From positions 4,469,001 to 4,533,000 of the forward strand of contig OX387199.1 in assembly GCA_947561715.1 (NCBI GenBank): DNA of 64,000 nucleotides, in the 5' to 3' direction. Shown here in pieces: positions 17,164-64,000 of this stretch. How positions within the stretch are numbered: the stretch's first letter is position 1; every line of letters starts with the position of its first letter. This stretch comes from Ascidia mentula (taxonomy: Eukaryota > Chordata > Ascidiacea > Phlebobranchia > Ascidiidae). A program made the position numbers and the translations under genes. The notes under the pieces were generated by a model, which worked only from the letters and a program-made list of their open reading frames with translations, had not been told where the DNA came from and did no database searches.

Positions 17164-18984
17164 TTATAACGCTGCCGCCTGTTGGAAGGCCTCGCCGTCG
17201 TTCTTCTTCCTTGCTGCTTCATTTGCCTGCTGCTGTTGCTGCTGATGTTGTTGCTGTTTGAGGAGTTGTTGTTGGTCAAGGATGAATTTTCGTAGGTGCT
17301 CGAATTTGGTTTTGTATTCGTCTCTCTCCTGTGCAATCGAACTCACTTGGTCTTGGAGCTGGCCGAGCTGTAAAACACAAAACCAAACCGTTAAACATAT
17401 CTCGCAAAAGAGCAGACTTAATGTTTTTTGGGTCATCAAGAATTGCGCCACCAACCTGCATTTGCAAAACACTTTTCTCTTTTTCGAGCATGTGCCTTTG
17501 CATGACGCGCTTTGTTCTACAGCTCTGGGCGTAACCCCGGTTCTTGAGAGTTCGGCGTCGCTGTTTTAGTGCGTGTACGTCGTCTTTGCTGCACAAAAAA
17601 GTACATACGTCAGTTTTTGACACAAAGGTGCATAAAATTGAATTTATCTCCATGTCATGCAGGACAAGTTGGGAGCCCGTGTTTAACGTCACTTAATTGC
17701 TATTTACCTTAGGCCTCGTAAACATCGGTTTAGGTCCCTCACGGTCATTTGAGTGAGCTGCTCGTCTGGTAGAGCTGCGATAGCTTCGCCCGGCAAGCCA
17801 TTTATAGATCGGTTTTCAGGTACCGAGCCGGCCGATTTGCTTCGCTGCTTGGCGCTATCAACTACCGCAACGGTGCCTAGAATGCTCTGCATTTTGTTGC
17901 CAGCCAGTTGCGTTTGCGCGGTCTCGCTGGTTAGGTCCAACGTAGCGGATGTAAAGTCCAAGTTGTTGACACACACGGAACCTACATCAGCAAGGCCGTT
18001 TAAGAACATACCGGGGGTGCAAAGAGCTGCGCCCTGACACGGGTTCGCGGTGTTGTACAACGCAGCCGCGCTGTAAAGTGGTGCGCTTTCCAACACACTG
18101 AGGGGATTGCTTGTGGCGAGGGAGGAGAAATTGGTTTGCACGCTTGATTTCTCCGTTCCATTATAACTCATTGGGTTACCAACGTTCGTGATCATCTGAC
18201 CTGGGTTTACAGTACAGTAAGTGGGTTGCAGTTGGGTGGCGGAAAGGGCCGACTGTGTATTTTGGTAAACCATGTTAGCAGCAGCGTCGGTAATTGGTCC
18301 CGGGTCTGAAATCTGCTGAATATTAGCAAGCCACGTCTCAAAAACTTCGTCTTCTCCCGACGAAATGTCGTCAGTGACGTTGAGGCCTGCAAAGTTGGGA
18401 ATCCCTGGAGCAAGCGACGATTGCACTTGCTGCTGTTGCACAGCTTGTCCTTGGGAGAGGTGGACTTTTAAATCTTGAGGCGAAGGCTGGTGTTGTTGCT
18501 CCTGGTGGTCGTCTTGCATTTGCTGTTGCGTGTACCACTTAAGCTCCTCGGCAGTTGGCTTTCGGTCCTGTGGGCTGGGTACTAGGTTAAGCGGAGAATC
18601 AACAACCTCAGGCGTCGCTTGAACATAGCTGTTCACGTCGAGGGCCTGTGACGAGGTGGTGCAAAAGCTTGCCACTACAGACCCGTTGTAGTTTGTGTAA
18701 GCTGGACCGTAACACTTGGACTCATCGAGGGCCCCCACCAGTGTGTTTTCCAGTGATGACATGGCAAAAGGTTCAACAGCGTTTTTGCAATCTTCCTGCA
18801 TGGTCGTAAGATCACAGGCGTTGTTGCTGTTGTTGCTGTTACTGTTGAAGGGACTAGATGATAAAAACGGGTCGCACGGACTCGACTGGTGGCTGAAAAG
18901 TGACGTTTGCTCTTGCATTTCTGAAGAGGGTATGTCTCCGCTTGACAAAATTTCGGACGCGCAGATCATATTAGAGACAACCAT
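17164..18984 (-). CDS. MAF: Large Maf bZIP transcription factor
   Basis: Three coding exons, read right to left: 17708-18984, 17456-17588 and 17164-17367, giving 537 residues. The ATG at 18982-18984 is the first after an in-frame stop. Residues 1 to about 400 are rich in Ser, Asn and Gln with Ser-Pro sites ([10 protein letters not shown]), as expected of an activation domain. The Maf extended homology region ([16 protein letters not shown]) ends at residue 425. The basic region follows ([20 protein letters not shown]), with the Maf-specific NRGYAxSCR. The leucine zipper spans exons 2 and 3, and the tail is a polyglutamine run. Large Mafs bind MARE elements as homo- or heterodimers in the nucleus. 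Introns interrupt the bZIP at residue 426 (phase 2) and after residue 470 (phase 0). Which vertebrate large Maf (MAF, MAFA, MAFB, NRL) is closest cannot be told, since this is probably the single pre-duplication gene. Confidence 0.95.
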
Positions 18985-19619
18985 TCGATCCACTGCTTGG
19001 AAGCCTGTCTTGTGCAGTAAAGGTTTTCAACTTGTTTGTATACAGGGCGTAGGGCGAACCAGGTAGATATCCTAAAAGCATTAATTTTCGGTGTATTTTA
19101 TTCGTGCTCTGCAAAAATAACATTCACAAATTAAGCTGATTGCAGTCTTGAAATTGCTCTGGATTCTCCGTTGCCTCTACAACACGCTGTGAGCAAAACT
19201 CCCAATTGCCGCAGTATAAGTTTGCGCAGGATTGCGCAACATAGCTGCACCTTATGTAACTCGCGCTTGCTCCTGACGTACCCGTTCTATATTACCGTGC
19301 TAACATGACAAGAACTACCAATTTCAACAAATTCTAGAGTCCGGCTTTAATGCATCTGGATGAAACTTACTGCATTCATTCGCTTAAGGCAGGTCTAGGT
19401 CTCGGGCGCGGTTATCAATACAAGCTCCGCCGGCTTGAGCAAACAGCTGACTGTGTGGCACTCAATGCGGCGAAGCCTCGATTTTATTCGCCGCGCAAAC
19501 AGAGAAAGCCGGCTCTCTCGGCCAATGGGAACGGGAAGGGCCTGAATCGCGACGAAAAGAAAGGCGCTTTGATAAACAAGTCAGAATCAGCTGACCGTTC
19601 CTGGAGCTGATCGACGCCT

Positions 19620-19805
19620 CGGCCTTTCTCCTTCCGCAAGCAGCCCGCGTTAAGCCTCAACTGTTTCTTGTCTCCCCCGCGGCTGTCCGAGTCTTTCTCC
19701 CCCTTTTCCTTTTCTCTTTCACTCCTTTTTCTCTTTTCCGCTTTGTTTTCTCTGGCGCAACACAATGTTTGTCATCTCTCTCTTTCTCTACCTGTCTTTT
19801 GTGTG
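19620..19805 (-). promoter_or_regulatory. Polypurine tract upstream of large Maf
   Basis: The plus strand is almost entirely C and T in long runs (TCTTTCTCCCCCTTTTCC and similar), so in the sense of the large Maf gene it is a GA-rich tract 0.6-0.8 kb before the ATG. Such tracts are common in animal promoters as GAGA-type or nucleosome-excluding sequence. No TATA box can be tied to it, so promoter identity is inference. Confidence 0.4.
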
Positions 19806-21879
19806 TAGGCCGCTCGCACCCTGGGCTCACTCTTTGCCCAAACCCGTAATACACTCCCGATTCCATTGCTCAAAATAATGATCGAACTACAACTTTTCAC
19901 CTATGCTATTGGCAGAACCAAATGGCGAAGAAACAACTTTAACCCCGGTTTGTTCAAACAAGCAAAAGCCCACGCGGTGCATGATTATATGAAGTACGCC
20001 GCGCCTTTGTTTAGTATTACTGCGGTTGAAAGAGTGGGAATATACTTCACCAAGAAACCTGCGACAGAGATTGCTTGCTCTACCCGCGTTTGCGGTTATT
20101 GCGACATTTCGGACCAACTATGGGTCCATTGTAGCTCCAACGGGCTGTTCATTAACGCCTGTACTTGTTCAAGCAGACCGTGTTTACCGTAAAGAAAACC
20201 TGTCCTTACAGTTGAACGTCGCCGATCGCGTCAAACACGACTGGTTTGCAAAAGGTGGGACTGACAGATAAATGCCACGGAATTGGCTCATTGCAATCTT
20301 CGTGGTCTATTGGAGATATCTACATTGGAAAATACGTGCTTCGAAAAGTTGAATCAGTCCGTTGCTTCGCAATTGATTAATTCCGTCAGTTGGGAAATTG
20401 CAAGCCCGACAAAAAGTGTCTATATTGCAACATTTGCCCCCGCGCCCCTTAACGCCCTTTCGTTTTTTGATTTATTATTCAATCTGAATTCGATGTCAGC
20501 ATGTTTGGCGATCTTCCAAGAAGCCAACGATCGTTAATTATTGTAGACTCGCCCAACTGGAACAAGTCGACTCGTCGAGCAATCCGTGTAGCTGTGGGCA
20601 CCGCAGTAGCCGAAACCTCTGCCGACCAGACCCACTTTTTGTCCCGTTCGCCCTTGTGATCGCAGTTTTGTTGATTTCACCGGACGGGAAATCAACTTGT
20701 GACCGGTACCTATGTGGTTTCAATCGGCACTTGCGACACAAGGAAGTGTGGAAAGGCGTTTCGTCCGATTTCAATGGAAGGTTGCGTCACAGCGCACACG
20801 CTCGACCGCACGAACCAACTCTTGGGTAATTTTTGACTCGTTTTCCGGCAAATGACGCTTGAAATTACAAAACTTAACGAACAACGATTTGGGTCCTGCT
20901 GCTTGCACATATTTGACACGCATTTTTTGTGGAAGTTAATAATCAACAGACGTAAATTTGTCTAAATTTCTGCGAAATCCAATTGTAAAAAGGACTGTGA
21001 TATTTGCACGGAAGTTACAAAACCAAGCGATCATTATTTGCACGTTCCCCAAAAAAGCACGTATTCGTATCATCATAGCACTTTATTAAACATGCGTTAA
21101 AAGGGCTTTGGGGTTGATTATACAAACGGAAAGATTAGCGCTCAGCGTCCTGCTGCTTAGAGCCTAAAGAGAACTGACGGTCTCGCTGTAAACAACTGCA
21201 TGAAATGAACTCATGAATCAAACTATTGCTCATGCGCCAGGAGCTATTCCCGCTGGCAAAGCGTCAGCAGAAGGCTTTTCTCCCATTGGTAGCAAGAGAC
21301 TCGAAGGGACGACGTTTCTTTGTCGCGCTGGATTTAATGCATTTCACACTCTCCCTGCTTTATTGTCGTGTTGATGTTTTGTTTCTATGAAGCGGGTTGA
21401 GTTAAATATAAACACGTCTTGTATTTTTATTCCATCCGCCTTTTCTCAACACCCATGACTGCGATATTGCATCAGGGCAGATGAAGAGGAACAGTTTTGG
21501 TGGCAATGTCCAATAAAGGCCGCTGCACTGTTGTACAAACTAACCATTTCTTTTTCCGCTTTGCGCCGTAACAATCTCTAAAGTCATTCAGGCATTATTT
21601 ATTTGACGCTGAACGCCCAAAACCAAAACACAGCACCAAAAAATGAGTTGTTTTATGATGATGTCAATAACTTGACTAAACGAAAACGTTGAAAAATACG
21701 ATATATAATAGAAACGGCGTGTTCGAAAATACTATATGAACAGGCGAAAGATTGGGTATTTTGAAAAATGTACGGGTCTGATGATTTTAGAACAGCAGCG
21801 ACATCTAACGGAAAAAGTTTACTTCTCTGTGTGCATATGCCGCCGTCATATACACCCTGACGAAAGACAATCGGTCAAT

Positions 21880-21950
21880 CGCTCGACCCGTATACCAAGA
21901 TGAAAGCCTGATCGGGACTTGTGGCCAGGACATTTTGGGTTCAAATTCCG
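21880..21950 (+). repeat. tRNA-derived SINE fragment (plus)
   Basis: Contains CCTGATCGGGACTTGTGGCC followed by a B box GGTTCAAATTCC at 21938-21949. The same order of words occurs on the minus strand at 22572-22650 with scattered substitutions, which shows a dispersed family rather than chance. Confidence 0.5.
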
Positions 21951-22571
21951 GTGTGATATAAAAAACATTGCTTGCAAAGTTAAATCTCGTAACAGGTCGA
22001 ATTCAAAGTCATTTAACTAACGTCATATGCGGCTTGTCGCAACCCATCACTTTCCAGTGCGACTGGCTGCGATCCTACGGCAGACGGTGATTCTCCTCGA
22101 GGAAATCGCCTTCACTTGGGCGCCTGAATCGATAATCTTTATGGTTTTATCGGTGCCCATACCATTTTATTCTGTTGTATATTGTTCATCTGCGTAGTTT
22201 TGCTTTTTGCGCAAAATACTTTTGATTTTGATCTTGTTTCTGTTTCTGTTTCCACTTGTGGCAGTTGAAAACACTAATGATGCCTTTTCAGGCGAATATG
22301 TTTTTCTCAACAAAACTCAGCTGTTTTTATAATCGTTGTTTCGAACACTGCATAGTAAAATTGCATCGAAACCAATGATGTTTAGTTTTGATTGAGATAT
22401 CTGTTTTTCGCAAATTGTTTTTTGTTTTTATGCGTGTAACACAATTATCATCAAAAGGTCAAGTAGCCACTCCGACTTCTGGCAGATATTCTCAATAGCA
22501 CTAATTGAAATAAACATTTTGTTTAAACCAAACATAGAACCTTTTTTTTATTTTTATTTTATTTTTTTTAC

Positions 22572-22650
22572 TCGACGGGATTTGAACCCAGGACATCCTG
22601 GCCACGAATCTCGATCAGGTTTTCTCCACAGCCTAAAAACAGGTCGGGCG
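22572..22650 (-). repeat. tRNA-derived SINE fragment (minus)
   Basis: Minus-strand partner of the fragment at 21880: CCTGATCGAGATTCGTGGCC, then a B box GGTTCAAATCCC (complement of 22577-22588), then an A/T-rich tail on the 3' side (22540-22571), as expected for a retroposed SINE. Confidence 0.5.
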
Positions 22651-24362
22651 CTTGATCCGAAGTCAAATTAATCCATGCCGCCACCATCCGGATAAGTCTT
22701 CCGAGATTTAAAACTGAATTGTCTTATTTGTGCATTTCTTGTATCTTTAAATGGCGGATTGGTGGGAAGTGTCCTTATTTGTAAAAATTTTGCTTCTTGT
22801 TACATCATCCACATTTTCATCGAATTTTCAGTGATCACGACAAACGAAAATGTGCAAGTGAAAATTTTATCCCGGGCAACACATCCATGATATAGCATTA
22901 AGAAAATATTATTTTCCCCAGGCGCCTATAGGAGACCTAGAAGTATATTTTAATCATATTCTCTTCAGATAATTAAATAAACGTTGTAGGGTTTTACAGT
23001 GTTAAGCCAGCTAGCATGTGAATGTATGGGTTTATCACCCTTTGTTCTAGGAAAAAAGGCACCACTGATACTCAGGAAATAATTTTACTTTTATTAGAAA
23101 AGAAAGTTTTTAGTTTAATGATTTCATTGTTTAAAAAACGTCACAGAAACCAGTAGTTGTATTGCGTAATGTCTTGTGTGCAGCATTGTACAAGTAGGCT
23201 ATTGCATAATCCATTTCTTTTGCAGCATTACACAAGCATTTGCAAGCCCCGTTACCGTATGCATTGGATATTTCGCAACTTCCGACCCACGTGTAAACAT
23301 AGCCTCATAATGTGAACCAAATGATCCATCCATCGAATGTTCTAGAGTAAAGTGATTCATTCAACATCCTGTTCATCATATAAAATATTCTCACATACAT
23401 CTTTATTCTTGTATTAAACTAACCATTCAAATGCTTTTCAGAGATCACACGAGCGATCGACTTCCGTTAGTGTTCCTCCAGAATGTGTTCAACAGTGATT
23501 CGGAGAACCATTCACCTTTCGCACATGTAAATCATTTATATCCGGTTTATATGTAATCTAGATGTGTCCTTGCTGATCTTATCCTGTACCATACTTCTTG
23601 CATTATATTGTTTTAAGCGATTCATTATACCACGCCCACATTATTTAGGCCTTATACAACCAGCTCTCAGTAGGGAGAGCTTAAAAGGCTACTATTCTAA
23701 ACAGTTAACAGATTTCATTACAATCATTATTCGAAGAATTTTCTAAGGTCTGATCACTTCGCAAGATAAGGTAGAAGAAATTATTACAACCCAAGAGACT
23801 TATCCGGGCTAGCGCTATCGAGACACTGCTAAATATCTCTGAGACAATTAGAGTTATTTACAGTTGCGTATTGCCTTCGAGGCAGGTTGTATGAAAGAAC
23901 AACTTTTTCACGGGTTTACGGCGAGGCGCATATTCTAATAAAGCAGCCACGACCTAGAAATGCTGTCAGTGCAAGTGTGGTGTGACACAAGTCCACACAA
24001 ATGTACTACAGATTTCAAAACCCCACTTCATTGAGGAATAGTATAAAATTAACTTTATTGTTACACATTACAAAGTGCTGTACAAAAATATCGCAATATT
24101 TTGATCACGTTGCGGTTTGAAAAATGTGTTAATTTATTATTTTGTTTTCTATGGCAAATGGGTATTTTTTTGGTCTAGTGACGTAATAATGAATAATACT
24201 TGTTGTGTAGGTGGTACACTGATCGTGATGTTTACGTCATAACATGAGCAAAGTGCAACATAAACAAAAAAGTGGATTGGTTTTGTTTTTCAAATTCTGA
24301 CTGAACTCATAAGTACCTATAGATATTAGTAATGTAGTTGTGTTAAAGTTTACATTTGGATT

Positions 24363-27300
24363 ATGGACGAATCTAGCAGGTTAAAAGCGGAAATTGCATA
24401 CTGGTCAAGTAAGTTGTATTTAATAAACTAATAAAGCAACTGTTGAAATGGTGGGTACACAACAGCTTGACATTATTTTCCAGATTTAATAACAACACAC
24501 AAACAGACCCAGCTCGCCAAAGCCCAAAAGTATAGTCGCCAGTCGAAAACATTTAAATGGACAGGAGGCAACAGCAACAGGTAACGTTGGTTTACTCATA
24601 TACAGACAAAACAATTGGTGTGTTCATTCCCTTCCTTAAACATCGAACTATGACACTTGACTGTCTTTTTAAGTAGTAAAACCCGAAGGCCCCAGATTGT
24701 AATTTACAACTTAGAGAACTTTATACCCACAGTAAATTGCCAGGAATGGCAAACTTTTTTTTGTGTGGTAGTAATTAGCATTTTGCTGATTTTTTTGCAT
24801 GGATTATTGGTAAGTTTTCGTAAAACACAGCATTTTTTCCAATTGGGCTGTTAGGTATATTCAACACATTCCAAAAGTACTAACTGTTGTTATTGCCCTT
24901 AGGAAATTTAATGCATCGAATGAAGCATCACTGACATCCACACGAAAGGTAATATATGAGATGTGTAGGACCAAAGTAGTTGGCGATTTGTCTAAAAGGT
25001 GCACATGTTGTCTCCTTTATAACCTTAATGATACTGTATTGTCTTAGAGCTGCTTGTTTCTAATTTATTTATCCCTTTATTTGAGCAGAACAGAAAAAAA
25101 AAACATAATAACATTTTTTTATAAAGATCCATCCAAGCCCGAAAGCCTCACTGTCATACAATCAAAGGACTCCCAATAAACACACAGCCAACGGACACAA
25201 TGCTTCTAAGTACAAGTGGAAACCAAAGCCTGAATGCGCTTCTTCCTCTGCCAACAATTCTATGCATGATGTGGAGGTACAAAGTTGTACCAGAAAACAC
25301 AAATCGGAGAATCTATCTACCTCCCATACTCCAGTAAAAAAGAAAACTTTCCACAAAGATTTCTCTTCCCACTCTGCTTCCAAAAATGAGTCCGACCGCT
25401 ATACATGGTCTAGCAACAAAACCTTGCAAGCAAATGGACATTCAAAGGAAGTAACTCGCACTTGCAGCGCTATAAGAAGTAAACATGTTTGGAGAAGGTA
25501 TGTCTTAACAATATTCATTTTATAATGCTATATGCCTGTGGTTTTTTCAAGTGAAAAAATTCAGTAGCCACCCGCCACCACTGTTATGTGACATATGATA
25601 TGAGGTTGAATTTATATGAAGTTATATTTTATATTTCGAGTGCAAAATAATGTTCGAGAAACTGTTGTTATTGCATCAAACTCCTCCATCACATTGGTGT
25701 TGTCCTTTCAAGAATGTAAAATAAATTTGTCATAATTTCTTGCCGATTGCAAGAGCGTTTTCAAATCACCAGGTTCTCCAGGGATAAAAATTTTGAGAAA
25801 CACTGGTATAGGCTTTGTGTACTACATATTGTGATTGCTCTTTGTATTTTCAGGAGAAGGAGTAGTGAGTCAAAGGCAAAACAATGGCAAACTTCTACGG
25901 CCAATACAACAGTTATGGTTAAAGAAATTATGGGGAAATACAGGTTGAGAAGAGTGCGTTCTAAACCAAAGTAAGGATTATTCACAGGATGAAATAAAAT
26001 AATCAAATACACTGCAATTTTTTTAAAAACTTACTGGGAGTATATCCATTTTAATGTATATACCAGAACTCTTTTGGCATGTGTATAAAATTACTGGATT
26101 TCTGTTTTTTTAGACATATACTTGGTTCTGCAGGTCACTAAATTTTGTTGTTGTTTGTCTGCAGATTATTGAAAAGTGCAAATGTCAGTAAAAACCCTTA
26201 CAAAGTAATCAGAAATTCATCCTCTGCACTATCACCTCATCATGCTAAATCTTCTCCAGTCAGGAGTCACTATCGTCCAAATCATTATCGGGTAAATTTC
26301 AACTGTTGTATTGCTACTTTTCTACAATACTGATTACAATTTCTACTCATTACATACAATTAATAAGCTATTTTTTTTTAACACATTTATTTTTCCGCAG
26401 GATGCTTACAGTTCTAGTCTGCGTTACAAAAGGTATGTATTGGTCGTATTTAACAATCATTTTTGTTTTTAACAAATATAACACACGCAAAATGCTGAGC
26501 TTGGTATTGTAAAAGACAACATCTTGTGCAGATCAAGATACAAACTTGAACTCAGTCACAAAGTGCAAACTCAAACACGCAATCCACGATCAGGCAACAT
26601 TGTCCTCAAAAGAAAACAAACCACACGTAAGTAATTGAGCAAAAAAACTGTTGAACTAAAAAGCTGTTCATTGTCAAAATTTTTTTATTATTGTCTGTTG
26701 ATAAAAACAATGTATGTTTGTGCAGATATTTTTTAAAATATCGTAATATTTATCAGGTAAAGAAAACAGCTTCCACATAAAACAACAATATTTCTACTCA
26801 ACCAAACAGAAACTGGCCAGGTAGGAATTGTTTATTTATAATTTCTTCACGAACTAATATGGAATCTGTTGTTTCAGTCAAGTTTTGCAAAAGAGCCTTC
26901 ATGCAGTTCGACACAAAAATCGCCACAAACTACGCAAAGTCTTTTGCTTGTTCTACAACAGGTATGATGTGTTTCCTCATATAGTTCTTTTAATATGATG
27001 TTTTATAGTGGTTATAGGTGTGTTTTAAAATATGTCTCTTCTAGGTTTGGAAAGTGTAACAGGGGTGACAAGTGTCAATATGTTCATGATCCAGCTAGAG
27101 TTGCTGTTTGTACAAGGTACGCATTATGGGTATAAAACTGTATATGCCTCAAGTCAGTGGTTCCAAACCTTTTTAGCACACAGCTCTCTTTTAATGCTAG
27201 TTTTATGGAAGCACTAGCTGTTTTTGGTCACAGAATGCATGGCAATAAGTTTATATATATTGATAATTTGGTTGACACAGTCATTTTTGTCTTCAAGGTT

Positions 27301-28054
27301 TCTTCGTGGGACTTGCAGAGACACATCCTGCCTGTTTTCACACAAAATTTCAAAGAAAAAGGTTGGTAAATCACGATTTAGCTTACACCTCAAAGCACTG
27401 AACGTAATACTTCAACCAGGTGCCAGTTTGTACTTTCTTCATGCAAGGAAAATGCAGTGCCAAGGAATGTCCGTATCTGCATGTATTTGTTGGTCACAGT
27501 GCAGATGTTTGCACTGCTTTCGCCACCACCGGATACTGCCAAAAAGCTGAGAATGTCAGTTAGGCATTTATATTTTTAAGTCTTTGGTGAACATATAGAC
27601 TTGCACACACATAATTTCCTTTCTCACCCTATGTATTTTTGAAGTGTAAGCAAAAACACATCCGTGTTTGTCCGGAGTTTTACAACAAAGGATCGTGTGC
27701 CAAAGGAGCCAAATGTAGCCTTCCGCACAAATCCAAGAGGTTGTTTGTATGTATGTTATTTGTAATTTCTATTTAGTAAACATTGTAGTTCTTAGGGCCA
27801 ACAAACTAAGAAAAAGAAAATCAACTTTTTCAAGGTAGGTTTTTTCCGTTGATAATACACATAAAACTAAATGGTTTATTTCATGTGCACATGCTGGTCA
27901 AATAATTAACAGGTCTATATTCATCGGTACAAGTGTAAAAAAAAGTTTTGTTATTAGCAAAAGCACATTGAACACTCATCACAAGTCAATGGATGGCTAC
28001 ATAAGTCTTCCAAAAACACAAGCTCTTGTCAAATGCAAACCAGGTACTATTTAA
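24363..28054 (+). CDS. ZC3H3: ZC3H3-like five-CCCH zinc-finger protein
   Basis: Sixteen exons: 24363-24408, 24484-24580, 24903-24948, 25127-25497, 25854-25970, 26165-26291, 26401-26432, 26532-26626, 26757-26820, 26878-26961, 27045-27116, 27298-27361, 27420-27554, 27645-27739, 27796-27834, 27913-28054. All phases agree and the protein is 541 residues. Five CCCH fingers lie at residues 355-374, 382-399, 409-426, 436-455 and 459-478, with spacing C-x7/8-C-x4/5-C-x3-H. The first finger (FGKCNRGDKCQYVHD) and second (VCTRFLRGTC) match ZC3H3. The N-terminal half is basic and low in complexity. ZC3H3 acts in nuclear mRNA 3'-end processing and export in other animals. The protein is shorter than I recall for the vertebrate one. 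The exon-13 donor (GTCAGT) is weak and the last three exons are the least certain part. CPSF30 also has five fingers, but its finger sequences fit less well. Confidence 0.9.
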
Positions 28055-28415
28055 GTTTGAATTATGTACCACCCTAATTTATAAAAATACGAAATCACTA
28101 GTGGTCCAGGACGGACAACAAATTCGAATACAACCACGCCTTGGGAAGAAAAAGTGCCAGGCGTAGGAATGCAGTGGTATAGTATGTATACCTCAAATGT
28201 TATTGTGCCATTTTTTACCATAAGAAGTGTATCAGTGTTGCAAGTGCTTTTAGGTTTGCTTTTTATGGAGACTTTTACAAATAAACAAAACTTATTGCAT
28301 GTGCGATGCGAAAATACAGTTACAAGAAGTGGCAAGTACGCAAGCACTGCAGGGAAGTGTACAGAAAAAAGTATTTACAAATTTTTGGTACAATGATGGT
28401 GGAGTATTGCTTGTG

Positions 28416-29080
28416 TCACCCTGACATTGGGCTTTCAACTAAAGTTTCTCTATCCTGTTTCGAGGTTCCGTTTTTAGAATAATCCACTGTTGAAGAGGAA
28501 ACTACCTTTAGAGGTAATGAAACTTCCTAAAAACAGTTGGTGATATAGTAAACAGAGGCACATTATGCACAGAAATAACAGTCTTTTTAAACAGTTTCTT
28601 ACTCCAGTTCCAGTTGATCCTTTTCCAATGCTTTTCGCAAACTGTTCCAAGTCATTAAATTTCTTTTGGAAGGCCTCCAGTTCAAGCTTCATCCGTTGAT
28701 TTTCTTGTGTGATTCTATCAACCTTACAAAAAACAAAATTTTAAAGAAAACTCATAAATATCTAAACACACCACCAAACTACCTCATTTTGAAGCTGCAC
28801 TCTTTCAATATCCAACTCATCTTTTTGTGTTAGACGCTTTATTCTACACGATGCTGCATATCCACGATTTTTAAGAGTTCTTCTACGCTGCTTTAACCTT
28901 CTGCTTTCCTAAAAACAAAAGAACAATTTTAACTAAAATTATCTTTCTGATATCAGTTGTAACACATTATTTCACCTCCGGAGAGAGACATCTTAAATGT
29001 CGGTTGAGTTCTCGGACACTTAAATTTACAAGTTCATCATCGGTAAATACAACTCCTTTTTGGTCGAGGTCTTTTGGCAT
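28416..29080 (-). CDS. MAFK/MAFG/MAFF: Small Maf bZIP transcription factor
   Basis: Four coding exons, right to left: 28976-29080, 28783-28908, 28603-28722, 28416-28526, giving 153 residues, the usual small-Maf size. It opens MPKDLDQKG, then the extended homology region ([20 protein letters not shown]), the basic region ([20 protein letters not shown]) and a leucine zipper across exons 2-3. There is no activation domain. Small Mafs repress as homodimers and activate with CNC partners (Nrf, Bach) at MARE/antioxidant elements. The intron after residue 77 falls at exactly the same zipper position and phase as the second large-Maf intron. Exon 4 rests on a good donor (GTAAGA) and acceptor. Reading through that donor would instead give a hydrophobic tail unlike small Mafs. 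Stop codon lies 361 bases from the convergent ZC3H3 stop. Confidence 0.95.
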
Positions 29081-30299: not shown

Positions 30300-33200
30300 T
30301 CACTGCATGCGGGTCTTCAAAAACGACAACTGCTTGTGCCAGCAATCTTCCTGCGCCTTGCAGTGGGCCACCTTCTCACCGCCGCACCTGATTAGAAAGT
30401 CGAATGTGAGTCCAGGTTGAAAGAGTATGTCGCAGTGCGGTGCAAAGGGGGGCTCCAGCATGTGCCCGGCCCGTTCGTAGTGCACGACGTCGTAGTCCGG
30501 ATGCCCAAATCGCTCTAATAGGATGTCGGCTTCCACTGCACTGGCGGAGGCTCCCGCGCATCTGTCATCTCCTCCAGCCATGAACAGAAACGACACGTCG
30601 CGGCGTTCGTAGAATGGAAATACTCCATCGCATGAATCCAGTAATGTTCCAGGCTCTGGGATGTCGTAAAAGCTTTTGATTTCTATAGGTTCGTTTTCGG
30701 GCAACGTGACGTTTTTCTTCAAAGGCATCTGTGGCCAGTACATGTCCTTGTATGAAATACTACCGCACACGGCGTTGATAGTACAGCTGAGCCACACCAA
30801 ACAGCGAATGTCTTCGAGGCAGCTGGCCATCGCCAGAGCGATTTGTGCCCCTTTGCACATCCCGACCAAGCCAATTCCAAGGTCACCATTTACATACGGA
30901 TGTTTCTTCAGGAATTGGACGCCTTTCTCGAAATAGGCAAGATCCAATGTACTTGTGAAGTCCTTCGGTAGCCCCTCCAAGCCGTAGTAGGCGAGGGTTA
31001 GGGATGCGAAGCCGTGTGAGGCGTGAAGAGCGCTCTTGAACTCCAAGACCCCCGGGTAGCCGCCAAATAGGTTAATGATTCCTGCAAAAAGAAAGACGTT
31101 CTCGTTATTGCCCAGGTTATCACAACATGGCAAAGAAACAAAGTCTGTCCATGGCAGTGTATCTTTTTTTCGCAGAAATCGATGAAAATCAATTGTGGTT
31201 GTTGCAAACACGCGACTTTCACAAGCCTTGCATCCGTCATCGGTTATGAAAATACCGCAACAAAACCCCATGGCATCGGCATGCATTTGCGGTCGTTTAA
31301 GTCACACACCGGATGGGTGAACAAGCCGCCGTTGCCGCACGAACTTGTGTGTCAGTCGTCCGTCATCCATTGTGTAGGAAGAGGTGAAAGTGTTGAGTGG
31401 TAAGGGATAATATTTCAAAACTTGAAATTTCGCGGCGTTGTAACAAAATACAAAAGCTGGCACGGAAATGCACGACGTTGGAACCCAAAATAAAACTTGG
31501 GCCCTTTTTCTCACGGCTCCATTGGTGCGTTTTGTTTAGATTTAACGCGGAGGTGAATTTAAATACGGAATAGTTAATTGTTTATACGTCCGTGTTTATT
31601 TAACTGGACTTCATTTATTTGCATCCAAAGGCGAAAAAAGTTACGTCAATACATTTTTTTAACGTTTGCAATATTTGGTGTAACCATAAACGCAATCGAT
31701 ATACTTCAGACCCACATACACGCAATAAAATTCAGTATTTCACTTGCAATAGTGTGGGCTGCAATCATGGCTCATGTAGTGTGTGAAAAAACAGTTTTTA
31801 ACGGCATTTTCATGCCTTGTTGTTTGTGACTCGGTGTGAACAGCTGAAATTCGGTTGACTAAGTAAAACAAAAACCATCAAACTTTTGACGTGGAATTTA
31901 AACGGCGTGCATTGTTCTCCAAAAAAAACCTTCAAAAAGGGCCGTTTTTGCAAACCAAGCGAGAACTGAGCTTTGCGCATCAACCGCACCGGACCAGCAC
32001 ACCAAAATTACCCACGGCCAGCTACGCATCGCTGGGTGTGTCTACACAATGTTCGCGTGACAATAGCAGGTTTTGACAGATTGAGTTCGATGGCGGAGTT
32101 TCCACAGAAAATTTTATTTCTGCAAATTTTTGCAGGCGTAATTTTTATATATTTGACTTGAGAAATCCCCAGGGTAAACCTAAAGTTTAAATTTAAACCT
32201 GGATCAATTTGTTAACTGCGCATTTGAATACAGGGGGGATTTTGAAGGTTAAAAGTAGTTTTTAGATTGAGTGCGCACTTCGCAACTTTATACGAACCTA
32301 AATACAAACGTGGTAAACATGTGAACGTCATTTTATTTACAGAATTTGCTTTTGAGTATGCTTGAGGATAAAAAGCTATATATTTGCATCTGTTATATGC
32401 GCATGCGAATTTTAGGAATAATGGTCACCTTCCGTTTAACTTTCATATATTCAAGAAAAAGTATTTTGCACCAAAACCTTTTGAATTTTCAACACGTATC
32501 ATTACACATTATCCCACTCAAGCCCCCGAAACCGAAACAGTTATTGCCGAGTTTTTCTACAAACCTGGGAAAGGGCCGTCACCGGGGGGTAGGAACAAGA
32601 CACCGTGCAACCCCTGCTCGCGCACTTCGATCCTCCGGACGCCGCTAGCCATGAAGCACCGTTGTATCGATGCTTCGGCAACAAACTGGTCTTTGTTTTC
32701 CTTCAAAATTGTCCTCAGATCTTCAATGTGGTTCACCTTGCGGTCGATGACATAGAAATCGTACACCTTGGGAGCGAGCGCACTTTTTGATGCAAAACGG
32801 AATCCTTCCTGCGAAACAGAAAGTTGTGTTGTGAGATCCAACCACGCAATGTTTACCTAGATCACTATATATGGAAGCCAATATGTTAAAACGCTGCTAC
32901 CTACATTTTGTCAAGTCGGCAATCACTTGGTCCACCGACCAACTCGCATTAAATTTTCACAGTGCAGCCAATTTTACGTTTTTATAAAAACCTTGGCTAT
33001 TTAAAACGCACTGACGATGCAACTTCAAAGAATGTATTTTTAAGGGAAGTTGTGTCATTAGTTTCAATCCCCATGCCGCCTTAATCAATAGCGCTTTTTG
33101 TGGCACACCAATAAGTGTGTAAGTGCATTTTCAGGTGCAGTTTTCTTTTGCAAACGAATATTTCAGATTTCATGGGGCACAAGAATGACGCCCTTAAACT

Positions 33201-37753: not shown

Positions 37754-40700
37754 TCACAAGTGTGACCGCTTGCCAAGGTTTTTCCTCAGAAATCCAATTT
37801 GTTGCTTCCAGGCATGTTCCTGGGCTTTACAATGGGCAACTGTTTCGCCACCCCAATCAAATAGGGTTTTTGGGACAAATGTACCTTTAACCACAGACAT
37901 CCTGTTATGTGGGATATACGGGGGCTCAAGCAAATGGCCTGCTCCTGGGTATCTTAAAATTTCATAGCTAGGATGCTTGGCAGCTTGCAATAATTTATGT
38001 GCAAGATTAGCGTAGTTTTCAGAGGGTGTGTTCAAATCTGACAAACTTGCCACAAACATGTAGGAGACATCCTTCCTCTCATAAAACTTGATGTTGCTGT
38101 CTTCAGAAGGAGGCACAGTTGTAGAAAATGAAGTGTTGAATGTAGGACATAAATATCTATACGGCACAGCTTTGTTATATGAAAAGGAATCATTCTCCAC
38201 ATCCCACTCATATGGGGGAAATATCTTGTCCTTATACAAGAGTGTTACAAATGTAACATAGCTAACGGCATTTTGCCAAATTACACATCGAACACCCGGC
38301 AAATAAGTAGCCATAGCAAGTCCAATGAACCCCGTGAAAGAAAGGACCATGACGCCAACTCCACAGGCCTTTTCTACTTTTTCTGTCCCAAGCAAAAAGT
38401 TCACAGCTCGCTCAAAATACTCCAAGCGTATTGTGTTGTCACCATCAGAATCAGAAAACAATTTTGGAGTCCCAGGAACACCAAAGAATGCCAGAGCTAA
38501 AGACACAAACCCATGTGAAGCCAGAAGGGAGGCCTTGTAATCCATGGTACCAGGATAACTGCCAAACATGGTGATAAGAGCTGCAAACAGAAATGGTAAT
38601 TTGTTTAAATAATGAACATGTTTGGGTAATGGCATAAACCCACATACATTAGAAAAGGTTGAACTCCGCTAAATATTAACATATTACCTGGAAAAGGACC
38701 TTCCCCCCTTGGAATGAATAACGTTCCATGAATACCATGCTCTTCAACTGTTAAGGGTATCCTTCTCGTACCTGGTGTCATATACAGTCTATTAATTGCA
38801 ATAGATGCCACTTTGTTCTTCGCTAAGGAGTTTCCATCATCCATTTTATGTAATTGAACGGTGTTATCGATTTCACATTGATATACTTCCACAGTCACCA
38901 CTAGTGGAGTGGTGACATCGAGTTTAGCAAAGCTGGCATATGTGTTCTGTACAAATATGTGGTTATATGTACTAATTGGTTAGGATCTGGGTTGTAATGC
39001 CTAATTACAATTAAGACTTTATTGTAATATTTTTAGTTGGTATAAAAATTATCATGGCATTTGGTTTCTGTGCAAAATAAGTACTTTTGTTGCCTTTACT
39101 GGCATGCAGCAAAAATATACATTTCTGAGCAAAATAAGAAGTGCACTGATCCGTACACTTTGAATACAACAACTAAAAAGCATCAACAATACTCAATGCC
39201 CAGGCAAGGAGACAATTTTCCCATGAAGAACTTACCCAGGTTTCATGTGACTGTTGATGGACACTTGGCCAAAATACTACTAATGGTACTATCATGTATG
39301 GACAAAGAAGTATTAGCTACCTTATTTGTAGGTGATGGTTCCATAGACCAAAATATCCCCATTGGCTCTACACCTATGTAGTTTCCACCCAATGCTTCAC
39401 TTGTATCCAACTCGATACTTCCTATTAGTTGTAATTTTCAGTTAATATTTTTCATCGGAAAAATTATTGCATAAATTTACAAAATAATGTGTTTTACGAG
39501 CTTGCAATAACAAAGGTGTAAAATGTGAATCAAATACCGTTTTCATCAGCTTTGTACCGAACCACACATTCAAACAGATTTTTGGTAGCTGGCCTTGTGA
39601 ATGAGTGAAGTGTGTAGATGGTTTGTGGTTGCAACCCTGGAAATGCAATGCATTGTAGCCAACTTTATTTTCTACTATAGGCCGCATCTCACAATTAAAT
39701 CCTAAAAATTGAGATTTAGAAGTCAGAAAACTGAAAATAGGTTTTGACCACCAGGTATCACAATGAATTAAGAATCTGACGCTCTTCTAGTGGAGAACAA
39801 CAAATATACACCTTTTGTTTAAAAAAGATTGTATTTTCTGACGTTTCGCCTGTACGTACGACTAGGCTTCTTCAGAGAATTGTTTCCCATGTTTGGCCGT
39901 TTGACCCATGATCGATGTTGTCCATTGATTTATGCCCCGCTGTGTTTTAGCTGTTACGCCCTTTTGTTTTTTCGTCGCTCAATTTCTTTGCCCTGTGGGT
40001 TCGCTTCGCTACTGTGTTTGTTTTATTCTCTGAAGAAGCCTAGTCGTACGTACAGGCGAAACGTCAGAAAATACAATCTTTTTTAAACAAAAGGTGTATA
40101 TTTGTTGTTCTCCACCAGAAGAGCGTCAGATTCTTAATTCATTTATAAGTCATTTGTCATTGTGCACCTGGTTACAGTTTCTCTTGTTTGCCAAAAACAA
40201 TTGCCGGGTCTGATGACTCATAAAGGGGGACTACTATTGCTGAATAGAAAAAAAATTGATTGCAACTGCATTAAGACAGCACATTGGGGGGGTTTGCAAA
40301 GGATAACTGCTAAATTGTCAGTCCTAGGGGGTGTACAAACAGTTTGGGTAGTTTTTCAGCTACATGTTCAACAGCACCCTCTACCAATTTACTACCTGAC
40401 TAATAACCCTGAAAACCATAGTAAAACTGCCCCAAACACGCTGAAAATCGCCCTGGCAACAGCCTGTTCATCTGCACTCATTCAACCAAAACACTGGCAC
40501 CCATGCATGACCCATTGCATTGTTACATATAATTTTACTCTGTTACGCAGGAGTTTGAGAAGGGCAGAAATACAGAGATGCGGCCTTCAATATGGGGCAA
40601 TTTTCCAGAATCTCAAATTCCCTATTAAATACAAGACACAGGACCTTCATTGGTTACCATGTGAAGTTTTATGCCTGGTTGACCAGCGGTCCCAGAGTTT

Positions 40701-42764: not shown

Positions 42765-43749
42765 ATTTACAAAGATTCCTATGTTGTTAGGTTAAAATAT
42801 GGTTCTAAGAAATGCAATAATTTCAATTATTTGACATGTTTTCAGTTATGTTGAAACAGTACAATAAAACACAAAGGAATTTACAAATGCAAATTGCCAG
42901 CATCAGCTAAAAACAAAACACAGATATAACATTGATCTATATTATTGATGCAATAGACAGATGGATAAACGTTGAAATAAACAGTGCATATTTGAAGGTT
43001 TACAGGAATTCAGGTAAGCATGACTACAGTGCTAATTGTACAATGATTTTGAAGATACAATATTAAAATTTTGTGACATAAAATTGTGATTTGAACCCAG
43101 TCCTTAACATAATAAATTAGCACAACAAATCAAAATTACAAGTAAGAACGCTTCCCTAAATTTATTCTCAAAAAGTCGATCTGGTGTTTCCAGGAATGTT
43201 CCTGAGCCTTGCTGTGAGGAACTGACCGCCCCAACCAATATCATTTTCAGAACTGAAAAATAACCTCTCACAAAAATGTTTCTATGTGGAATGTATGGTG
43301 GTTCTAAGCGATGACCAGCCCCTGGGTATCTAAAACCTTCATAATTGGGATGCTTGGCTAACCGTAGCAACTTATATGCACGATTTATGTATTGTTCAGA
43401 TAGGCAGTTTTTGTGTGACAAACACACAATAAACAAATATGCAACATCTTTTCTATCATAAAACTGTATACTCTTGACTTGAGGGGCAGGCTGCGTCATT
43501 GAAAAGGAAGATTCAAATATTGGAAACAATTTTCTGCTATTTTTGGAAAGATCTTCGTTGGTCCCCATCTTTGATATTTCCCAGTCATGTCCGGTCAAAA
43601 CTAAGTCTTGTAACACAATTTTGCATGGTTAACATGCATCAAAGCATTTTGCAAAACTATACAGCGAACATTAGGTAGATTCGTAGATATGTTGCCATAG
43701 CTAGTACAATAAATCCTGTGTAACTCATGGACGAAATCCCAACACCACA

Positions 43750-45222: not shown

Positions 45223-48200
45223 GAATAGCTTGTTGAGCTTCAGAAACGATAGCAGTGTTTTGCTACAGCGATAATATAGAATCAAATTGAACATGCCATA
45301 GACTGTAAGACTTTTACACTCTTACACTTCTGACTCATTTGGAAATGCAAATACACTGCGGCTGACTCCACTTGTCTGAGAGACGAGTAAACCGATGATC
45401 GACATATGAAAACTAAAATCGCAGGAATTTTTTATTGCTATTTCATCAATTGGACTTTTTCGGATGGTTCGGAGTTCGGACACGAGTTTATATTCTCTTG
45501 GGAAAATATGTAGATTTACGTTGGTTAATTTAATTATACACAAACGAAAGACGTACTGCAAATGTTAATTCCAAAACAAAATGCACGTTTGTACTGCAAT
45601 TTATAGTTTATTCTGGAATAAGTAAAATCATTCAGTAATACTCACAATACAAAAGACAATGCTGCAATAACGCCACACAACCACGTATTAGAGGAAGCAG
45701 AAGTTTCGTATGTTGATTATTGGGCCAGTACAGTATATGTGCAGTAGTTCGTTGTCCTATCGGTGGGTTTGGAGCTGCCCATCTGGCCCGGTGAATTGAC
45801 CGCATTTTATTGCCGTAATTCACCAAGCCTTTGCTAACTAGCATTAGGCAATCGTACATTAATCACGACGTGGCAATTTTGTGACGAAAACATTTCGGAA
45901 ACGACAAAACAAAACAAATAAAACTTCATCACTGTAACTAACTGTCTTATTGTTCAACACTCTTTGAAACAACAATAAAATTTCAAACAAATTAAATTTC
46001 CCAAAAGCATAGGAAATATGTATAAAATATATGCCAAAATAACTTGAGTCGGTTATAAGATACAAGGGTAGTAACGACGAATTCGAAACAATGAGCAACA
46101 ATAAACGAAGAGTAGACAAACAATTCAATTGCAATATAAAACAATCCAAGTATATGGGTTTCAGATAACAGATTTAACAGCATATGAAGAATATCTTCCC
46201 ACAATAGCATAGCAATATCACAAGTGTGACCGCTTGCCAAGCTTTCTTCTCAGAAACCCAATTTGTTGCTTCCAGGCATGTTCCTGGGCTTTACAATGGG
46301 CAATTGTTTCTCCGCCCCAATCAAATAGGGTTTGGGGGCCAAATGTACCTTTAACCGCAGTCATCCTGTTATGTGGGATATATGGGGGCTCAAGCAAATG
46401 GCCTGCTCCTGGGTATCTTAAAATTTCATAGCTAGGATGCTTGGCAGCTTGCAATAATTTATGTGCAAGATTAGTGTAGTTTTCAGAGGGTGTGTTCAAA
46501 TCTGACAAACTTGCCACAAACATGTAGGAGACATCCTTTCTCTCATAAAACTTGATGTTGCTGTCTTCAGAAGGAGGCACAGTTGTAGAAAATGAAGTGT
46601 TGAATGAAGGACAGAAATATCTATAGGGCACAGCTTTGTTATATGAAAAGGAATCATTCTCCACATCCCACTCATATGGGGGAAATATCTTGTCCTTATA
46701 CAAGAGTGTTACAAATGTAACATAGCTAACGGCATTTTGGCAAATTACACATCGAACACCCGGCAAATAAGTAGCCATAGCAAGTCCAATGAACCCCGTG
46801 AAAGAAAGGACCATGACGCCAACTCCACAGGCCTTTTCTACTTTTTCTGTCCCAAGCAAAAAGTTCACAGCTCGCTCAAAATACTCCAAGCGTATTGTGT
46901 TGTCGCCATCAGAATCAGAAAACAATTTTGGAGTCCCAGGAACACCAAAGAATGCCAGAGCTAAAGACACAAACCCATGTGAAGCCAGAAGGGAGGCCTT
47001 GTAATCCATGGTACCAGGATGACTGCCAAACATAGTGATAAGAGCTGCAAACAGAAATAGAATTTGTTTAATTATTGTACATGTTTGGGTAATGGACACA
47101 TACATTTATTTAAAAAAGTTAAACTCCACAATTTCAGCTCAATTGATTCATTATAATAGTAGATTCATCCACCACTAAATATTAACATATTACCTGGAAA
47201 AGGACCTTCCCCCCTTGGAATGAATAATGTTCCATGAATACCATGCTCTTCAACTGTTAAGGGTATCCTTCTCGTACCTGGTGCCATATACAGTCTATTA
47301 ATTGCAATAGATGCCACTTTGTTCTTGGCCAAGGAGTTTCCATCACCCATTTCATGTAATTGAACGGTGTTATCGATTTCACATTGATATACTTCCACAG
47401 TTACCACTAGTGGAGTGGTGACATCGAGTTTAACAAATCTGGCATATGTGTTCTGTACAAATATGTGGTTATATGTACTAATTAGTTAGGATCTGGGTTG
47501 TAATGCCTAATTACAAGTCTTTAATGTAATATTTTCATTTGGTATATTAATTTTCGTTGTATTTGGTTTGTGTGCAAGATAAGTAAAGATTTGAATACAA
47601 CAACCAGAAATATAACAAATGATACTCAATGCCTAGGTAAGGAGGTAATTTTCTCATAAAGAATTCACCCAGGTTTCATGTGACTATTGGTGGACACGCC
47701 AAAATACTACTTATTGTACTATCATGTATGGACAAAGAAGTATTAGCTACCTTATTTGTAGGTGATGGTTCCATAGACCAAAATATCCCCATTGGCTCTA
47801 CACCTATGTAGTTTCCACCCAATGCTTCACTTGTATCCAACTCGATACTTCCTATTAGTTGTAATTTTCAGTTAATATTTTTCATAAATTTACAAAATAA
47901 AGTGTTTTACAAGCTTACAATAACAAAGGTGTAAAATGTGAATCAAATACCGTTTTCATCAGCTTTGTACTGAACCACACATTCAAACAGATTTTCGGTA
48001 GCTGGCCTTGTGAATGAGTGAATTGTGTAGATAGTTTGTGGTTGCAACCCTTAAAATGCAATGCATTGTGGCCAACTTTATTTTCTACTATAGAGTAACA
48101 TGTGAAATAAACACAATCATCAAAAAATTTCTAGATTCCGATCATACTCTGAGATTTTGATCAAGAAAAAAAATCTTTAAAGGTTAGGTAAATATACCTC

Positions 48201-49896: not shown

Positions 49897-51813
49897 TTAT
49901 AATTTGGAAGTCTTGCTGCTGGCAAGATTTTTTTTCAGAAAATCAATTTGTGGCCCCCAAGATGCCTCCTGTGCTTTGCAGTGCGGTTTTGTGATGCCGC
50001 CCCAGTCCAACAAATACACACCAGCTATAGACGTTATTTTGTTGTGTATGCCAAAAGGTGGTTCAACTAAATGGCCTGCACCTGGGTATCGTAAAATCGT
50101 GAAGTTAGGATGTTTTGCTTCTTTCAAAAGAAACTCTGCCCAGTTCACATAGTGCTCTGAAGGAACACTTTCATCATTGAGACTTGCGATAAACATGTAT
50201 GCAACGTCGTGCTGATTTTGAAAATTAAAAATGTAATCATGGTTATTTATCCACTTGTTTTCTACTTTGTGGCATTTAACTGATTCAAAAAATCCCCGCA
50301 GACGATTTTTACCCGTTACTTCATAGAGGTCTTGGATCATTGGTTTTATGATTTTGTCCTTGCAGTATATTTTACAAGCTGATGGTTGGAAAGTCCCATT
50401 CATCCATATGACACAGGTGACCTTTTGACTGTACTCGGCCAATGCCAATGCAACAGCTGTACTAAAAGATAAACTAAGTATTCCAACACCACGTTGAGCA
50501 TCCACTGATTTATGGTCGGAGAGGAAGTCTACTGCATGTTCAAAATATTCAAGATGCAACTTGTCTTCAGCATTGACAAATATTTCTGTTGGCAATCCTT
50601 CTTCTCCATAAAATGCCAAGGCCATAGTAACAAAACCATGAGAAGATAAAAGTGCTGCCTTAAACTCTAGAGTGCCTGGATAGCCTCCAAAGGTCACAAT
50701 CACACCTATAAAACATACATAATGTCATCATAGAAAATTGCTTTGTGGAAAAGTATGCATGAAACCATTTCTTGAAATAATACAAACATCTTAAACTCCC
50801 AAACCATTTTTTTGGTTTTTAGATTTGAAAAAAGATTAGATTAATTTAGGCTTGTGATAATGTATTAAAATCCCAAAACAGCGATCTGTAGACAGCTCAG
50901 ATCGATTTATTGAGAGAAAAATATATTTCGCCTAAAACGGCGAAATATACTAATTTACTAATCACATTTAGGCTTGTGATTGTTGTTCCATGATACAGTT
51001 TAACTGTAAAGGCAAGATATAATCTTGGTTGTAACCAACATTGAAAATCAATATTTTCAAACCAACCAGGAAAAGGTCCTGGACCGTCAGGAACAAATAA
51101 AGCTCCATGTAACCCATGCTGTTTTACTGAAAGTGGAATCCTCTTTGTTCCTTTGGACAAAAGCCAACGGTGGATACATGCAGAAGTGAGTTTAAAACGT
51201 TTAAGATCTCCGCAATCCTCCTTTAAGGTTACCATCTCCTTAAGACTGCCAACTGCTATGTCATACACCGTAATTGTCACATTCAAGGGGGTAGTCACAT
51301 CAATTTTTACAAATCTTTGGTTTTCATACTGTAAAAGCCAGCAATAGCAAAATTGATTTGAAAAATTCAAAAAGGCAAGTCACTATACCTTGTTACTAAA
51401 AGACTCTTGCATTGACCAAAACAATCCCATAATGTCAACTCCATTATAGGTCCCACCAAGTGATTGGTCCTTCGACAAGTCAATGCAACCTAATTGAATG
51501 ATTGCAAAAACAAAAAAAGATTTTCGCCATTGTAATGCACATGAGAAAAATATGGTCAAGTACTTTTTGTGAAAAATTAGATTGCACCTGTGGAGTCTGT
51601 CTTGTAAAGTGCTAAACTTTCAAACATATTCCCATTATCAATGATAGCATGTCCATGCAATGTCACTATCTTGTCCGGGGGTAAACCTGTGAAGCAGAAA
51701 ACATGGCATGTAAACCTGGTGTTGATTTATGTACTATGTTTTGTACAACCTTGGATTCCAATTTTTATCTTTTCATCACACATACTGTTTGTGGGACAGC
51801 TAATAACAGCCAT
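49897..51813 (-). CDS. Gene F: BAAT/ACOT enzyme with SKL peroxisomal signal
   Basis: Exons, right to left: 51750-51813, 51588-51686, 51389-51489, 51067-51328, 49897-50705; 444 residues. N-terminal domain residues 1-175 ([34 protein letters not shown]), hydrolase domain from 176. The nucleophile is Ser255 in GVGILSLSFSTA, where the two glycines of G-x-S-x-G are replaced by serines. The acid lies in SLNDES and the histidine in [11 protein letters not shown]. The protein ends -TSKL, a canonical PTS1, so a peroxisomal acyl-CoA thioesterase or acyltransferase is expected. Intron 3 is only 60 bases. G is its close tandem copy. Start chosen at the ATG that gives [11 protein letters not shown], a motif shared by G, H and I. 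Confidence 0.93.
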
Positions 51814-63842: not shown

Positions 63843-64000
63843 AATTTCAGATGATTGCAACGATTCGTAATAACCTGAACAATAACAAAGTGTTAGCATT
63901 ACAAATATTGGTTTTAAAACACTGTTGCCACTCTGTATAAAGTCCGAATGAGTGTTTAATCAATAACCTTCGACATAGCACAGTAACTTCCTTTTTTGAA

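Follow-up and report, generated by a model that had tools for sequence, protein, structure and literature searches.

Linked large and small Maf genes with a common leucine-zipper intron in the tunicate Ascidia mentula

Both classes of Maf transcription factor are well studied: large Mafs act in tissue identity, e.g., that of beta cells, and small Mafs serve as partners of NRF2 and BACH. How the two classes originated is, to our knowledge, known from trees alone. In a stretch of 64,000 nucleotides from the tunicate Ascidia mentula (assembly GCA_947561715.1, contig OX387199.1, positions 4,469,001 to 4,533,000 of the forward strand; hereafter the window), one gene of each class is found on the same strand, with a single recognized gene between them and with one intron at an identical position in their leucine zippers. 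The locus thus raises the question of whether it preserves the tandem duplication from which the two classes arose, as an initial annotation of this DNA had proposed, or whether the two genes came to lie together in some other way.

Two Maf genes on either side of a zinc-finger gene

The first gene, on the minus strand (18984-17164), has three coding exons and an open coding sequence of 1614 nt for 537 amino acids. Its protein matches the Pfam bZIP_Maf family with 96.9 bits (cut-off 22), the domain starting at residue 406 of 537, and its nearest relative in the PDB is MafA (97.1 bits, vs 82.6 for MafG). The profile, the PDB scores and the tree described below agree on an extended homology region and a basic leucine zipper (bZIP) with the large-Maf signature; ahead of this Maf block lies a long N-terminal region, in which the N-terminal Maf domain of Pfam found no match at E-values up to 1. 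The vertebrate large Mafs (MAFA, MAFB, MAF and NRL) are alike in their extended homology and bZIP region and in carrying a long N-terminal region.

The second gene, also on the minus strand (29080-28416), has four coding exons and an open coding sequence of 462 nt for 153 amino acids. It scores 95.7 bits against bZIP_Maf (same cut-off), with the domain starting at residue 12, and 122.2 bits against MafG, its nearest PDB relative, vs 88.5 against MafB. The extended homology region and the bZIP are present and, at this length, the N-terminal activation region is missing, just as the vertebrate small Mafs (MAFF, MAFG and MAFK) are without a long N-terminal region. Judged by these sequence comparisons, the first gene is the large Maf of this tunicate and the second its small Maf, and nothing unusual was seen in either Maf protein itself. 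Both exon structures are predictions from sequence, made by eye and by script:

17708..18984, minus strand: large Maf coding exon 1, encoding the N-terminal region and the first part of the extended homology region; open frame, GT donor, ends in phase 2
17589..17707, minus strand: large Maf intron 1, 119 bp, GT/AG, phase 2, within the Ser codon of LRGL-S|KDDV
17456..17588, minus strand: large Maf coding exon 2, encoding the basic region and the first part of the zipper; Pfam bZIP_Maf on the spliced protein
17368..17455, minus strand: large Maf intron 2, 88 bp, GT/AG, phase 0, after VLQMQ; the shared zipper intron
17164..17367, minus strand: large Maf coding exon 3, zipper, then a Gln-rich tail and the stop codon
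28976..29080, minus strand: small Maf coding exon 1, ends in LSPE
28909..28975, minus strand: small Maf intron 1, 67 bp, GT/AG, phase 0, after LSPE
28783..28908, minus strand: small Maf coding exon 2, encoding the basic region and the first part of the zipper
28723..28782, minus strand: small Maf intron 2, 60 bp, GT/AG, phase 0, after QLQNE; the shared zipper intron
28603..28722, minus strand: small Maf coding exon 3, zipper
28527..28602, minus strand: small Maf intron 3, 76 bp, GT/AG, phase 0
28416..28526, minus strand: small Maf coding exon 4, short C-terminal tail and stop; open frame from the AG acceptor, phase 0

In line with the initial annotation, which had put the two classes on one strand 9.4 kb apart, 9431 bp separate the coding ends at 18984 and 28416, and the bZIP exons lie 11.3 kb apart. 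Two loci of Maf identity were found in the genome (195.8 Mb, 79 contigs), one for each class: a family search gave four matches, with large Maf coding exon 2 scoring 60.5 bits, and a MafG query gave two; the two further family-search matches are JUN and FOS (named by eye). With genes placed uniformly, a given named pair would come to lie within 12 kb with a probability of 0.00012. Across the 21 bZIP loci described below, Mafs included, three pairs lie within 20.5 kb of each other, vs 0.04 expected.

The two paralogues are nearly adjacent, as one recognized gene stands between them:

26165..27739, plus strand: CCCH gene, finger-bearing part, nine exons in a single open frame

This gene has a basic N-terminal region followed by CCCH fingers in tandem (five fingers by eye, 58.5 bits to zf-CCCH, with two stretches passing alone). 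CPSF4 is its nearest solved relative (58.3 bits), and the genome search gave no other strong locus of this type, a second, weak match lying on contig C70 (26.6 bits). The whole gene probably spans ~25.1 kb to ~28.2 kb, an upstream open frame at 25112-25522, which has no Pfam match, probably belonging to it. The name ZC3H3, given to it in the initial annotation, fits this architecture and is used here as a putative one.

The zipper intron and the age of the two classes

We counted intron positions from the first base of the L codon in LKQRRRT. The introns of the large Maf fall at -19 and +114 nt and those of the small Maf at -12, +114 and +234 nt. The second introns of both genes therefore occupy the same codon boundary, both in phase 0, and the protein alignment of the two Mafs across this region has no gaps, which bears out what had been noticed at the outset. 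The site lies in the zipper, 20 residues past the conserved Cys-Arg of the basic region. Two introns in the conserved block set the tunicate large Maf apart from human MAFA and MAFB, whose coding sequences are intronless, and the tunicate small Maf differs from the vertebrate small Mafs in its zipper intron, in its fourth coding exon and in being linked to a large Maf.

Under a model with two random introns per gene over 268 sites, the chance of at least one exact coincidence is 1.5% if introns may fall at any site, 3.0% if they fall after G and 2.5% if they fall after AG. By itself, the coincidence is suggestive, not overwhelming. The case is strengthened by a census of other bZIP domains, among which no such intron appears. 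Searches of the genome with PF03131, PF00170 and PF07716 gave at least 21 distinct loci, both Mafs included, and, as one CREB-like locus has two bZIP exons, 20 non-Maf bZIP domains. In 16 of these 20 the Maf intron site is crossed unbroken, the open frame running at least 32 residues beyond the conserved Arg; in the other four the frame breaks earlier, 5, 11, 12 and 13 residues past this Arg. These four breaks were read by eye at GT sites (the BACH donor is weak), the reading stopping before the following exon; the anchor Arg was set by script and in some rows sits a few residues too early, with no effect on the outcome. The Maf zipper intron was thus unseen in any of the 20 other bZIP domains read in this genome, including those of a CNC gene (L018, nearest to NRF2) and a BACH gene (L017, nearest to BACH1). 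Both are NFE2-type relatives of Maf, and MAF and NFE2 derive from one single protein, according to passages of PMC4736632. Being exactly shared by the two Mafs and unseen in the other domains, the zipper intron supports, and was likely shared through, common descent from an intron-bearing ancestor.

The first introns do not add to this. The initial annotation had correctly placed them seven bases apart, in phase 2 in the large Maf and phase 0 in the small, and had lent weight to their nearness. With no gap in the alignment, homology would require assuming a 7-nt slide together with a change of phase; we therefore rejected the first introns as a shared position.

How old is the split between the two classes? 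In the ungapped Maf block, the tunicate large and small Mafs are identical at 37 of 85 residues (44%). Compared with solved structures over the same block, the large Maf shares 54 of 83 residues with MafA (65%) and 63% with MafB, and the small Maf shares 52 of 85 with MafG (61%). Crosswise, the large Maf is 53% identical to MafG and the small Maf 52% identical to MafB, so part of the low identity between the two tunicate genes is due to fast change in both. A five-row tree separates the tunicate small Maf and MafG from the tunicate large Maf, MafA and MafB with support of 100/98. Since both tunicate genes resemble their vertebrate counterparts more than they resemble each other, and the tree split agrees, the duplication, as far as these sequences tell, must be old, predating the tunicate-vertebrate split. 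Such an age is compatible with passages of PMC4736632, by which large and small MAF emerged after the cnidarian-bilaterian split, their separation being one of four bZIP family duplications before bilaterian cladogenesis.

Other bZIP domains of the genome also occur close together. Two CREB-type bZIP exons (L005/L006, G000:C71:6235330-6235957) lie ~500 bp apart on one strand, each with its own stop, and resemble the alternative DNA-binding exons of vertebrate CREM. A pair of bZIP genes (L023/L024, G000:C71:4250465-4267751) lies 17.1 kb apart on opposite strands, and a pair of bZIP domains (L010/L011, G000:C67:19716607-19768079) lies 51 kb apart on the same strand.

How the linkage may have arisen

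Evidence that bears on the linkage comes from vertebrates and from other bZIP pairs. According to part of PMC13121032, human alpha and beta cells differ in methylation over a long region whose annotation is MAFA/ZC3H3; because a single region is annotated to both genes, MAFA and ZC3H3 are apparently neighbours in human, as the tunicate large Maf adjoins the ZC3H3-type gene. If the middle gene is ZC3H3, the linkage between it and a large Maf would be older than the tunicate-vertebrate split. A section of PMC9741223 describes a block at human 8q24 that runs from ZC3H3 to DGAT1, and mentions MAFA a single time, with no explicit order of MAFA and ZC3H3. Conserved non-coding elements span the vertebrate WWOX-MAF locus (PMC2745767, in excerpt), which places a further large Maf within a regulatory block.

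A pair of C/EBP genes, one of them divergent, lies 20.2 kb apart on opposite strands of contig C70 (L016/L022, G000:C70:5348517-5368888), with no intron seen in either bZIP domain. One member scores 73.5 bits to C/EBP-beta and the divergent member 51.1 bits, the latter resembling C/EBP-gamma in its motif NNVAVKKSR. Human CEBPA and CEBPG are neighbours, an ancient pair of bZIP paralogues kept linked in vertebrates; a linked large and small Maf, on the other hand, is known to us from no other animal. The apparent linkage, in this genome, of a second bZIP pair whose duplication is reported to fall in the same age class makes a relic tandem pair of Mafs more credible.

Taken together, these observations lead us to the following account. 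One ancestral Maf gene would already have carried the leucine-zipper intron and would have duplicated in tandem beside a ZC3H3-type gene, before tunicates and vertebrates parted and probably in stem bilaterians; both the tandem origin and this date are what we infer. One copy, with a long N-terminal region, would have become the large Maf, and the other, a short dimer partner, the small Maf. The trio of large Maf, ZC3H3-type gene and small Maf would then have stayed together in this lineage, presumably kept as a block by regulatory elements within the ZC3H3-type gene or close to it, while vertebrates seem to keep the MAFA-ZC3H3 half. For the account as a whole, from tandem birth and ancestral intron to a trio kept linked, we consider the chances balanced, and likewise whether the genes are still linked as the tandem duplication left them could go either way. 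The more specific claim, i.e., that the duplication took place at this very locus, which survives with Mafs flanking ZC3H3 as in the stem bilaterian, the zipper intron founding both classes and human MAFA-ZC3H3 as the other half, is possible but somewhat doubtful. A relic tandem pair is the best, if unproven, reading from this one genome. Of the initial proposal of a local tandem duplication from an intron-bearing ancestor, the intron's descent is thus supported by its exact position, and continued linkage ever since is plausible.

Several observations weigh against this account. Just one of the two candidate introns is common to both Mafs, and in the tree the tunicate large Maf is marked as a long branch whose placement is uncertain. 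In human, the small Mafs map to 17q25, 22q13 and 7p22, apart from the large Mafs, and traffic jam and maf-S are unlinked in the fly. FOS (C2) and an ATF3-like gene (L013, C67, labelled by eye), products of a third duplication of the same age class, are on different contigs; for the fourth, PAR/NFIL3, one PAR-like domain was recognized in the genome. Four of five markers chosen from human large- and small-Maf neighbourhoods are off the Maf contig, C52 (TMEM184-type on C2/C72, KDELR on C67, NDRG on C70 and CYC1 on C1), and BOP1, though on C52, is ~8.9 Mb from the Mafs. As C52 makes up 12% of the genome, one marker in five is at chance level, and marker placement neither supports nor excludes shared ancestry. 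Finally, tunicates lost 95% of bilaterian-ancestor block novelties and vertebrates 84%, according to part of PMC8851819, whose authors caution on sampling; with most ancient blocks lost in tunicates, survival of a Maf block is unexpected a priori.

Some of these points would be expected if the intron is ancestral and the linkage secondary, i.e., if the Mafs had separated and a rearrangement in tunicates brought the small Maf beside a large Maf-ZC3H3-type pair. The separation of the two classes in vertebrates and flies, the single marker in five on C52 and the heavy loss of ancient blocks (PMC8851819, in the part cited) speak for such a history. An accidental re-meeting, however, is improbable at 0.00012 for one named pair within 12 kb, and three close bZIP pairs where 0.04 were expected make linked bZIP pairs a pattern of this genome; we regard secondary linkage as unlikely, though worth serious consideration. 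Parallel insertion would instead place an intron at the same spot in two independent genes and leave the linkage as a separate matter. First introns that lie 7 nt apart without being identical indicate that introns may arise or move in this stretch, and a coincidence chance of 1.5-3.0% is not negligible; the exact agreement in position and phase in an ungapped alignment, and the lack of such an intron in the other bZIP domains read, make parallel insertion improbable.

Had the Mafs duplicated locally and recently, within tunicates, and then diverged fast, the close linkage and the long tunicate branches in the tree (0.66 and 0.56) would be accounted for. This reading is contradicted by the 100/98 split between the classes, with one tunicate gene on each side, and by identities to the vertebrate counterparts that exceed the identity between the two neighbours by 17-21 points. 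We give it hardly any credence. Irrespective of its origin, the trio might also be held by present-day co-regulation, with enhancers used by both Mafs lying within the ZC3H3-type gene or close to it. The human methylation region annotated to MAFA/ZC3H3 (PMC13121032) and the conserved elements across WWOX-MAF (PMC2745767), each source again in part, are consistent with this; the Maf recognition element TGCTGASTCAGCA, on the other hand, occurs nowhere in the window with up to two mismatches, where 1.2 occurrences were expected by chance. Co-regulation is compatible with a tandem-born pair, and as a cause of linkage with a different origin, the only case counted here, it is very improbable.

Were the two Mafs indeed a relic tandem pair, their linkage and shared intron would place the duplication of the Maf classes at one locus, and the order Maf, ZC3H3, Maf would offer a synteny mark that can be checked in other genomes. 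The tie between MAFA and ZC3H3 would then look older than vertebrates, and an ancient block would have survived in tunicates, whose genomes reportedly lost most of theirs (PMC8851819, same part). Among the matches listed for open-licence PMC titles and abstract openings, nothing was found on linkage between the two Maf classes, on a zipper intron common to them or on a block of MAF, ZC3H3 and small MAF. An AP-1 study in Ciona robusta reports a single 'Maf' (KH.C7.294), for which other species have no robust homologues; in its main text the words synteny, intron and exon are absent, and the present claim is not addressed there (PMC8369891). Excerpts of PMC11989980 and PMC9903618 hold nothing on Maf introns or synteny. 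Host-contaminated prokaryote assemblies, searched as a source of outgroup Mafs, gave 56 pattern matches, none a confirmed relative.

Other features of the window and genome

Beyond the small Maf, the minus strand of the window carries a tandem array resembling BAAT/acyl-CoA thioesterases (30303-59570), in which eight open frames match BAAT_C, some of them very alike in the stretches compared:

30303-31301, minus strand: BAAT_C frame
37757-38668, minus strand: BAAT_C frame
43107-43628, minus strand: BAAT_C frame, partial
46221-47105, minus strand: BAAT_C frame
49900-50724, minus strand: BAAT_C frame
52807-53679, minus strand: BAAT_C frame
56101-56928, minus strand: BAAT_C frame
58761-59570, minus strand: BAAT_C frame

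Near the end of the window, a piece of an aldose-1-epimerase-like gene (63663-63959, minus strand) gives a weak match under the Pfam cut-off. Elsewhere in the genome, the 16-base spliced leader of Ciona occurs in 2157 copies (1091 forward and 1066 reverse), vs 0 for the reversed control, which supports a tunicate source of the DNA; among the matches listed is a tandem array at G000:C1:15239666-15297871 with a usual spacing of 719-720 bp.

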